Source of the DNA: Amia ocellicauda
Taxonomy: Eukaryota; Chordata; Actinopteri; Amiiformes; Amiidae
Length of the DNA stretch: 64,000 bases
Assembly: GCF_036373705.1 (NCBI RefSeq)
Contig: NC_089851.1
Coordinates: 53,292,812-53,356,811 of the forward strand
Reading direction: 5' to 3'
Part shown: piece by piece, positions 1,309-37,690 of the stretch
Position numbering within the stretch: the first letter of the stretch is position 1
Layout: the number at the start of each line of letters is the position of its first letter
Notes under the pieces: generated by a model
What the model was told of the DNA's origin: nothing
The model's input: only the letters and a program-made list of their open reading frames with translations
Databases searched by the model: none
Position numbers and translations under genes: made by a program

Positions 1309-1330
1309 CAGCAGCAGCAGCTGCAGATTT

Positions 1331-1404
1331 GGCGCCGTGGCTAAGTTGGTTAAAGCGCCTGTCTAGTAAACAGGAGGTCCTGGGTTCAAATCCCAGCGGT
1401 GCCT
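1331..1404 (+). tRNA. tRNA-Thr(AGT), cassette 1
   Basis: A 74-nt cloverleaf. Acceptor GGCGCCG pairs with CGGTGCC (one G-U), discriminator U. The anticodon stem CCTGT/ACAGG encloses loop CTAGTAA, anticodon AGT. The T arm CTGGG-TTCAAAT-CCCAG contains a good B box. The A box reads TGGCTAAGTTGG. The nearest T-run terminator (TTTT, 1,462-1,465) is 58 nt downstream, so a transcript would carry a long trailer. It looks structurally functional. A34 would be edited to inosine in a normal Thr isoacceptor. Confidence 0.95.
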
Positions 1405-1701
1405 TATGCGGGCTTTGTGTGCTCCTTGCGAAGCTTGTGCTTCTGCTTTGTCGACCATCAGTTTTAGCAAGATAGGCTTATCGTAAAGCCATCAGAGGAC
1501 GTAATGAACCGGAAAGCCAACTGGACAGACGCCGGTTTGTAAAGAAGAACCAGAACCCAAAGGACACGGGCTACGCGCACCTAACGGCCAACGTCCAATT
1601 CCCATTGCCGCCCCTGGACAGTCGCAACAGGGAGCTTGTTGCTCCCGTCAACCTTACGTTTTCACCTCTGTGTGCTTCCTTTGTTGCAGCCTGCATCCAG
1701 A

Positions 1702-1806
1702 TTTTGTTTTGTTTTGTTTTGTTTTGTTTTGTTTTGTTTTGTTTTGTTTTGTTTTGTTTTGTTTTGTTTTGTTTTGTTTTGTTTTGTTTTGTTTTGTTTT
1801 GTTTTG
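1702..1806 (+). repeat. (TTTTG)21 microsatellite
   Basis: Twenty-one perfect TTTTG units between the two Thr tRNA genes. It contains many T4 runs that could stop any Pol III read-through from the upstream tRNA. Copy number differs between cassettes. Confidence 0.98.
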
Positions 1807-1849
1807 TGCCTTACGCCTGAGTGTAGGCACTGGGGAATGGGAGAGTCCT

Positions 1850-1923
1850 GGCACCGTGGCTTAGTTGGTCAAAGTGCCTGTCTTGTAAACAGGAAACCCT
1901 GGGTTCGACTCCCAGCAGTGCTT
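1850..1923 (+). tRNA. tRNA-Thr(TGT), cassette 1
   Basis: A 74-nt cloverleaf with anticodon stem CCTGT/ACAGG and loop CTTGTAA, anticodon TGT. Acceptor GGCACCG pairs with CAGTGCT, with a terminal G-U and one C-A mismatch, discriminator U. D-stem position 25 is T here (AAAGTGCC, against AAAGCGCC in other copies), giving a G-U. The T loop TTCGACT is intact. TTTTT at 1,976-1,980 is the first terminator downstream. The body closely resembles the neighbouring Thr(AGT) gene. Confidence 0.88.
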
Positions 1924-2087
1924 TGGTTTACGTTGGCATAGGCAATGGAAAGGAAGTTTCTAAACGCTCAATACATTTTTGCAAGATGGCCGTCCGCAGC
2001 AAGCAGCTTAAGGTTACTGTAGCCGCAATCTGGCAAGCTGACCGCCAGAAGTAGATACAATAACAAGGGGCGGGGGGAAAAGTGGGC

Positions 2088-2161
2088 CGTCCATGGGTGG
2101 ATTCGAACCACCATCCTTTCGGTTAATAGCCAAACACGCTGACCGATTGCGACACAGAGAC
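2088..2161 (-). tRNA. Asn-type tRNA with anticodon ATT, cassette 1
   Basis: The reverse strand matches vertebrate tRNA-Asn along its length: GTCTCTG acceptor, D arm with CAATCGGTCA, T arm GGTGGTTCGAATCCACC. The anticodon loop is CTATTAA, so the anticodon is ATT instead of the normal GTT. The A box is damaged (TGTCGC for TGGCGC), and the acceptor 3' strand CATGGAC leaves one mismatch and one G-U. A Pol III terminator (T4, complement of 2,078-2,081) lies 6 nt past the 3' end. Probably a pseudogene or weakly expressed. Confidence 0.85.
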
Positions 2162-2261
2162 AGACACAGGTGTTCTGGATGCTGCAGTCGTGCAGTTCCT
2201 TCACAGTTGCCAGAAATCATTTCCAGCACACGATTTTCTTTGTTGTTGAATGCAACATACG

Positions 2262-36757: not shown

Positions 36758-36779
36758 CAGCAGCAGCAGCTGCAGATTT

Positions 36780-36853
36780 GGCACCGTGGCTTAGTTGGTT
36801 AAAGCGCCTGTCTAGTAAACAGGAGGTCCTGGGTTCAAATCCCAGCGGTGCCT
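36780..36853 (+). tRNA. tRNA-Thr(AGT), cassette 7
   Basis: Same mature sequence as in cassettes 5 and 6: perfect acceptor, anticodon AGT, consensus A and B boxes. Looks functional. Confidence 0.96.
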
Positions 36854-37150
36854 TAGGCGGGCTTTGTGTGCTCCTAGCGAAGCTTGTGCGTCCGGTTTGT
36901 CACCCATCAGTTTTAGCAAGATAGGCTTATCGTAAAGCCATCAGAGGACGTAATGAACCGGAAAGCCAACTGGACAGACGCCGGTTTGTAAAGAAGAACC
37001 AGAACCCAAAGGACACGCGCTACGCGCACCTAACGGCCAACGTCCAATTCCCATTGCCGCCCCTGGACAGTCGCAACAGGGAGCTTGTTGCTCCCGTCAA
37101 CCTTACGTTTTCACCTCTGTGTGCTTCCTTTGTTGCAGCCTGCATCCAGA

Positions 37151-37235
37151 TTTTGTTTTGTTTTGTTTTGTTTTGTTTTGTTTTGTTTTGTTTTGTTTTG
37201 TTTTGTTTTGTTTTGTTTTGTTTTGTTTTGTTTTG
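37151..37235 (+). repeat. (TTTTG)17 microsatellite
   Basis: Seventeen perfect TTTTG units between the Thr tRNA genes of cassette 7. Confidence 0.98.
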
Positions 37236-37278
37236 TGCCTTATGCCTGAGTGTAGGCACTGGGGAATGGGAGAGTCCT

Positions 37279-37352
37279 GGCACCGTGGCTTAGTTGGTCA
37301 AAGCGCCTGTCTTGTAAACAGGAAACCCTGGGTTCGACTCCCAGCAGTGCTT
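37279..37352 (+). tRNA. tRNA-Thr(TGT), cassette 7
   Basis: Standard Thr(TGT) copy, anticodon TGT, T loop TTCGACT, with one C-A mismatch and a terminal G-U in the acceptor. Confidence 0.88.
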
Positions 37353-37516
37353 TGGTTTACGTTGGCATAGGCAATGGAAAGGAAGTTTCTAAACGCTCAA
37401 TACATTTTTGCAAGATGGCCGTCCGCAGCAAGCAGCTTAAGGTTACTGTAGCCGCAATCTGGCAAGCTGACCGCCAGAAGTAGAAACAATAACAAGGGGC
37501 GGGGGGAAAAGTGGGC

Positions 37517-37590
37517 CGTCCTTGGGTGGATTCGAACCACAATCCTTTCGGTTAATAGCCAAACACGCTGACCGATTGCGCCACAGAGAC
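37517..37590 (-). tRNA. Asn-type tRNA with anticodon ATT, cassette 7
   Basis: Both internal promoters are intact (GGCGCAATCGG, GGTTCGAATCC), and the discriminator is G. The anticodon is still ATT. The acceptor 3' strand CAAGGAC leaves one C-A mismatch. Of the seven ATT copies this one is the most likely to be transcribed. Confidence 0.86.
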
Positions 37591-37690
37591 AGACAGAGGT
37601 GTTGTGGTTGCTGCAGTCGTGCAGTTCCTTCACAGTTGCCAGAAATCATTTCCAGCACACGATTTTCTTTGTCGTTGAATGCAACATACG

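Follow-up and report, generated by a model that had tools for sequence, protein, structure and literature searches.

Contig C2 (NC_089851.1) of Amia ocellicauda carries a cassette of transfer RNA (tRNA) genes joined into a satellite of about 142 bp, and cassette and satellite are repeated together in arrays along distal C2. We studied a window of 64,000 nucleotides, C2:53,292,812-53,356,811, in assembly GCF_036373705.1 (988 Mb in 385 contigs, C2 measuring 63.6 Mb). The cassettes share their junctions with the satellite, were amplified with it and fall into array types, and their tRNA genes show no extra conservation. The explanation we favour, at a probability of roughly two in three, is that these tRNA genes would be passengers, captured once by a chromosome-specific satellite and co-amplified with it, decaying and inflating the tRNA gene count.

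A tRNA gene cassette is repeated within a satellite

ARAGORN called 23 tRNA genes in the window, and Rfam RF00005 gave 23 matches at identical positions, with scores of 49.8-73.3 bits. The agreement of the two programs bears out the first-pass annotation, which had described seven cassettes of the same gene order (Thr-AGT, Thr-TGT and, on the opposite strand, Asn) and a half copy in the satellite. The tRNA set is a repeated unit of several genes in fixed order, and this order was repeated in further arrays. Cassette 1 (1309-2261) consists of Thr-AGT (1331-1404, +), a (TTTTG)n stretch, Thr-TGT (1850-1923, +) and Asn-ATT (2088-2161, -). The same gene order was found in cassettes 2 (11001-11933), 3 (14513-15475), 4 (23349-24296, with two acceptor-stem mismatches in Thr-AGT), 5 (25582-26474), 6 (27914-28876) and 7 (36758-37690), and all seven lie on the + strand. 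According to ARAGORN, the Asn anticodon is ATT in 7/7 window cassettes and GTT in the half copy only. The (TTTTG)n stretch between the two Thr genes is a perfect microsatellite of 9-23 units (1702-1807 and the equivalent site in all seven cassettes), and its length varies among the seven.

The satellite that holds the seven cassettes occupies positions 1..39526 on the + strand, as delimited by Tandem Repeats Finder (TRF) and by monomer anchors, and each monomer has a GATA-rich part and a unique core. Monomers run head to tail, with 247 anchors on the + strand of the whole window and 0 on the - strand; the commonest anchor spacings are 142, 146 and 138 bp, and the monomers are about 97% alike. 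The cassette with its monomers repeats as a higher-order unit, and no clear peak of a higher-order period was found within the satellite alone. Between the cassettes of the window the satellite is irregular in length, from 1.3 to 8.7 kb. It resumes at 61217..64000 (+) and runs about 84 kb past the half cassette; this stretch contains 514 monomer anchors, and no cassette was seen in its readable part (5 kb of it is N).

Cassettes share one pair of breakpoints

Besides the window, we read about 252 kb of stretches, 8 kb of them on contig C27, and eight small loci; the stretches were chosen around known matches and are not a random sample of C2. Five sets supplied 30 complete three-gene cassettes: 12 at 53.27-53.47 Mb, 8 at 53.52-53.55 Mb, 5 at 52.56-52.60 Mb, 3 at 55.41 Mb and 2 at single loci. 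Alignments of cassettes no longer than 850 columns, from halves or from copies interrupted by N, were excluded.

The cassette takes the place of five monomer bases (GCTAC), and no target-site duplication was found at the joint with the satellite. Among the seven window cassettes the left breakpoint is exact in 7/7 and the right in 6/7, the remaining one having a single mismatch. When all 30 complete cassettes were compared, the right junction was present in 30/30 and the left in 29/30 within 3 edits; the 30th cassette has the same left breakpoint with more changes adjoining it. Because the same breakpoints recur across the 30 complete cassettes, which come from several C2 arrays, we conclude that a single founder was copied along with its satellite. 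This upholds the earlier claim that the cassette is embedded in the satellite and was amplified with it. The common breakpoints rule out that the cassette inserted several times independently. Nor did we see cassettes lying side by side without satellite, the observation named beforehand as counting against this claim: monomers separate the cassettes in all sampled arrays, 3-7 of them in the densest.

The first-pass annotation had further suggested that the satellite units themselves carry RNA polymerase III (Pol III) promoters. A scan of both strands of one 142-bp monomer, doubled, revealed neither an A-box nor a B-box consensus, and the 84-kb satellite stretch has no visible cassette among its 514 anchors (5 kb N), so this suggestion was not supported. 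The predicted Pol III promoters are confined to the cassettes.

Cassette arrays are found on distal C2

The 25-bp right junction, with at most 3 mismatches allowed, matched the genome 634 times (182 forward, 452 reverse). Its reversed pattern, run as a control, matched 0 times, and a chance origin is therefore excluded. The 100 of the 634 matches that were listed, all mismatch-free, lie on C2 at 51.16-54.68 Mb. A search with one cassette and one monomer, proposed beforehand as the way to locate the arrays, likewise placed all scored matches on C2. The best 40 of 669 whole-cassette candidates were at 52.57-60.43 Mb (40/40 on C2; 35 complete, 5 partial), and the best 40 of 209 monomer candidates were at 52.58-60.50 Mb. 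A donor locus outside C2 was not found among the best 40 cassette candidates scored, all of which are array copies.

The arrays are of distinct types, and those sampled outside the window are regular. In the three-gene array at 53.52-53.55 Mb, six satellite blocks of 12, 14 or 16 monomers follow one shared length pattern and a seventh block has 44. Two-gene arrays (Thr-CGT, Asn-GTT) are located at 51.41, 51.78, 52.06 and 52.15 Mb, where a unit recurs every 1.1-1.65 kb with 3-7 monomers. The two-gene unit still has the spacer located after Thr-AGT in three-gene units, and is thus most simply a deletion derivative of them, in which case the three-gene form would be the older one. The middle Thr anticodon was CGT in 24/24 two-gene units (C2:52.06 and 51.41 Mb) and TGT in 32/32 three-gene or half units; TGT would be the expected product of CpG decay of CGT. 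Divergence was 1.0% within sets and 2.8% between sets, which is the pattern that local amplification gives, and only 0.06% within the 53.52-Mb set, a recent array.

tRNA genes are no more conserved than the spacers

If the tRNA genes were under strong selection as a class, they should vary less than the DNA between them. Among the 30 complete cassettes, 35/222 tRNA sites were variable compared with 55/597 spacer sites, the tRNA genes being the more variable (Fisher p = 0.011). The 5' flank, in which 4/22 sites were variable, and the (TTTTG)n stretch are excluded from the spacer class in these site counts. Split by context, CpG sites were variable at 17/32 in tRNA genes and 18/64 in spacers (p = 0.024), and non-CpG sites at 18/190 and 37/533 (p = 0.27). 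On a common tree, parsimony gave 0.14 changes per non-CpG site in Thr-AGT, 0.10 in Thr-TGT, 0.17 in Asn and 0.10 in the spacers. Maximum-likelihood (ML) relative rates were 1.58, 0.75, 2.18 and 0.81, respectively. Letting the partitions differ raised the log likelihood from -2069.25 to -2059.29 (2 x 9.96 with 3 extra parameters, p ~0.0002, calculated by hand); the ML output names the model GTR+F where HKY+F had been specified. In the right halves of 24 two-gene units, 16/148 tRNA sites and 17/297 spacer sites were variable (p = 0.08). In none of these tests (site counts, parsimony, ML, two-gene halves) were the tRNA genes as a class more conserved than the spacers, a result that speaks against strong selection on the class as a whole.

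Many of the tRNA genes depart from a well-formed state. The Asn anticodon is ATT in 16/30 cassettes and GTT in 14/30. Eukaryotic Asn codons are read by GTT, and an A at position 34 would become inosine, risking the reading of a Lys codon. By a simple check of the stems, these were free of mismatches in 12/30 Thr-AGT, 0/30 Thr-TGT and 19/30 Asn genes; a mismatch or indel was present in 18/30, 30/30 (one shared acceptor mismatch) and 11/30, respectively. Two-gene units have an acceptor mismatch in Asn in 24/24 and in Thr-CGT in 23/24. Only 4/30 cassettes combine a mismatch-free Thr-AGT and a mismatch-free Asn-GTT with a Thr-TGT that has at most its fixed mismatch. The first run of at least four T begins 6 nt after Asn; for Thr-AGT the distance is 41 or 57 nt, and for Thr-TGT it is 52 nt (28/30) or 310 nt (2/30).

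Probable capture by a satellite and the alternatives to it

We propose that a three-gene cluster of Thr-AGT, Thr-CGT or Thr-TGT, and Asn was joined once into the satellite of about 142 bp. Unequal exchange and local satellite amplification would then have spread the cassette with its neighbouring monomers across the arrays of distal C2, and larger duplications with inversion would have relocated whole blocks. The cassettes would mostly be passengers, decaying at or above the rate of the surrounding DNA and losing CpG sites. The many CpG changes in the cassettes fit germline methylation, and the satellite is probably methylated, to judge from this pattern; it may also be heterochromatic, as it was first labelled. 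Methylation, silence, unequal exchange and the greater age of the three-gene form are the parts of this scheme that we infer.

Several observations weigh against a purely passive role. The Thr anticodons are invariant within each array type (AGT 30/30, TGT 30/30, CGT 24/24), the A and B boxes of Thr-AGT match the consensus in 30/30, and 8/8 cassettes of the array at 53.52-53.55 Mb carry a well-formed Asn-GTT (73.1 bits). These features suggest that a minority of the array tRNA genes may be functional. In addition, Thr-TGT changes no faster than the spacers (ML 0.75 against 0.81), and the tRNA-spacer difference at non-CpG sites is not significant (p = 0.27). Gene conversion between arrays can blur rates, and the spacers could themselves be constrained, in which case the comparison would be too strict.

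The arrays might instead be a maternal, oocyte-type tRNA depot that provisions the egg, with transcription in growing oocytes and silence elsewhere in the body. Here and below, published systems are described from passages of the papers cited. This role has been proposed for the repetitive tRNA loci of zebrafish, where the Thr-AGT/TGT/CGT group shows a switch (PMC11417395), and maternal 5S and small nuclear RNA (snRNA) genes lie within the zebrafish chromosome 4 block (PMC11075544). A methylated tRNA array in Arabidopsis is active in root cap cells (PMC12308677), and many cassette copies on C2 keep an intact fold. However, the tRNA genes show no excess conservation in either three-gene or two-gene arrays, Asn has ATT in 16/30, and all but 4/30 cassettes have some defect beyond the fixed Thr-TGT mismatch. 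The terminators of at least four T are also distant from both Thr genes (41-57 nt past Thr-AGT; 52 nt in 28/30 or 310 nt in 2/30 past Thr-TGT), and C2 has neither an NLR match (0/21) nor a scored 5S match (0/47). We therefore consider a depot unlikely, although it is the strongest of the alternatives. Less probable still is that distal C2 would be a switchable Pol III domain, in which hundreds of cassettes, shut by methylation in the body and open in the oocyte, would supply the egg pool with decay-altered decoding (Thr-CGT to Thr-TGT, Asn-GTT to Asn-ATT).

We are about equally doubtful of a role in chromatin, in which TFIIIC would bind to the A and B boxes and these would serve as repeated boundaries or organisers within the satellite, irrespective of any use of the tRNA. 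Fission-yeast pericentromeres are bounded by tRNA clusters (PMC6309819), and on C2 both boxes are kept in Thr-AGT (30/30) and the A box in Thr-TGT (30/30). On the other hand, a strict B box is found in only 19/30 Thr-TGT and 25/30 Asn genes, and in 0/24 Asn genes of the two-gene arrays. The spacing is irregular as well, with 1.3-8.7 kb of satellite between window cassettes and 84 kb of satellite showing none (5 kb N). Finally, satellite regions are the hardest to assemble, and tRNA arrays and satellite could have been misjoined or multiplied by the assembly. This we regard as very improbable: the window has 0 N, so no gap runs through it; the cassettes have diverged from one another by 0-4%; the same junctions recur 634 times, in independent arrays and on both strands; and the block at 39.5-61.2 kb has an inverted copy at 97-98% identity.

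A half cassette and a duplicated block

The proposed capture of a tRNA cluster by the satellite is accompanied on C2 by rearrangement of larger blocks. The half cassette (60754..61216, +) comprises Thr-TGT (60805-60878, +) and Asn-GTT (61043-61116, -) and has the same right junction as the full cassettes. Its left edge is common to four further C2 half copies, three from the cassette search and one at 52.556 Mb. Non-satellite DNA separates the two satellite stretches (39527..60753) and contains pieces of a DNA polymerase B-type gene and Tc1/Tc3-type transposase genes. An inverted counterpart of the block at 39.5-61.2 kb lies at C2:52.556-52.566 Mb and consists of three pieces with 96.6-98.6% identity. 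The half copy at about 60.8 kb, reported in the first-pass annotation, is therefore present, but it is part of this duplicated block rather than a simple array edge. From the inverted counterpart and the half copies with a shared edge, we conclude that blocks beyond the satellite have also been duplicated and inverted.

The polymerase gene lies in pieces at 41.8-43.8 kb of the window (Pfam DNA_pol_B_2), and window positions 41.49-44.35 kb are missing from the inverted copy at 52.56 Mb. The transposase genes are at 54.4-54.9 and 58.9-59.9 kb, a stretch that is absent from the inverted copy. We also considered the half copy as the ancestral form of the cassette. A basal position for it was not supported by a tree of right halves, in which it groups with nearby three-gene copies and from which 1 of 57 right junctions, having no readable start, was left out. 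The bases of the half copy before TTACGCC, however, resemble those of two-gene units.

Comparison with known systems

Xenopus has a tandem repeat with several tRNA genes as well as the Pol III-transcribed satellite 1, with oocyte-biased activity. The Xenopus promoters belong to the repeat unit itself, whereas the predicted C2 promoters sit in an insert within another satellite. Entamoeba arrays are made of working tRNA genes, in units separated by short tandem repeats. The C2 frame is, in contrast, an unrelated satellite that also exists without tRNA genes, and the likeness lies in tandemly repeated units with a few tRNA genes apiece (PMC2888827). Such tandem arrays arose many times in eukaryotes, and clustered tRNA loci make up 65% in zebrafish and 87% in stickleback (PMC2888827). 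Tandem tRNA arrays have also been described at catfish chromosome ends (PMC10071708).

The Arabidopsis SYY cluster of tRNA-Ser and tRNA-Tyr genes resembles the C2 arrays in its tandem tRNA cassettes, which in Arabidopsis are methylated and mostly silent. The passages on SYY mention no separate satellite frame, and for SYY cell-specific expression has been shown (PMC12308677). In pikes, 5S ribosomal DNA (rDNA), which is transcribed by Pol III, has been amplified into mixed higher-order arrays with CG methylation. Little pseudogenisation is described there (PMC5437419), whereas the C2 tRNA genes vary at least as much as their spacers.

Closest in kind is the long arm of zebrafish chromosome 4, a repeat-rich arm that holds nearly half of the tRNA genes, with the arm-specific satellite MOSAT-2 adjoining (PMC3392230, PMC11075544). 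The passages cited do not present those tRNA genes as inserted at a fixed place in satellite units, which is the arrangement of the C2 cassettes. The parallel with this arm, drawn in the first-pass annotation, is an analogy only. FISNA-NLR genes gave 0/21 genome matches on C2 (27 candidates, all scored), and 5S ribosomal RNA (rRNA) gave 0/47 scored matches there (of 47,274 candidates). The positions of the NLR and the scored 5S matches do not support homology to the zebrafish arm. The scored 5S matches fall on contig C8 in 23/47 cases (22 at 7.4-9.8 Mb and one at 23.0 Mb), and the other 24 are on small contigs.

A different tRNA satellite was seen at C27:4,296,001-4,304,000, where a unit of about 226 bp contains a tRNA-Cys-like sequence in each copy. 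There are 35 unit anchors in these 8 kb, 4 of 35 units are called tRNA genes by both ARAGORN and Rfam, and the unit spacings suggest a longer period of several units. Unlike on C2, the tRNA part is somewhat less variable in most bins (mean heterozygosity 0.17-0.28, against 0.23-0.33).

We found no earlier description of an unrelated satellite that carries a tRNA cluster at a single fixed joint and in hundreds of copies, which is weak evidence of novelty given the limited literature covered. Tandem tRNA arrays are already known, and the satellite-framed cassette at fixed junctions would be a new variant of them. Fish tRNA gene numbers range from about 700 to 20,000 (PMC2888827), and in zebrafish embryos the majority of predicted tRNA genes are inaccessible (PMC11574265). 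A satellite that captures a tRNA cluster and then multiplies it, with no selection on the tRNA, would offer a concrete mechanism for such inflation of tRNA gene number. Because the C2 arrays carry natural tags (TGT or CGT, GTT or ATT), the use of satellite-borne tRNA genes, for example in oocytes, is directly testable.
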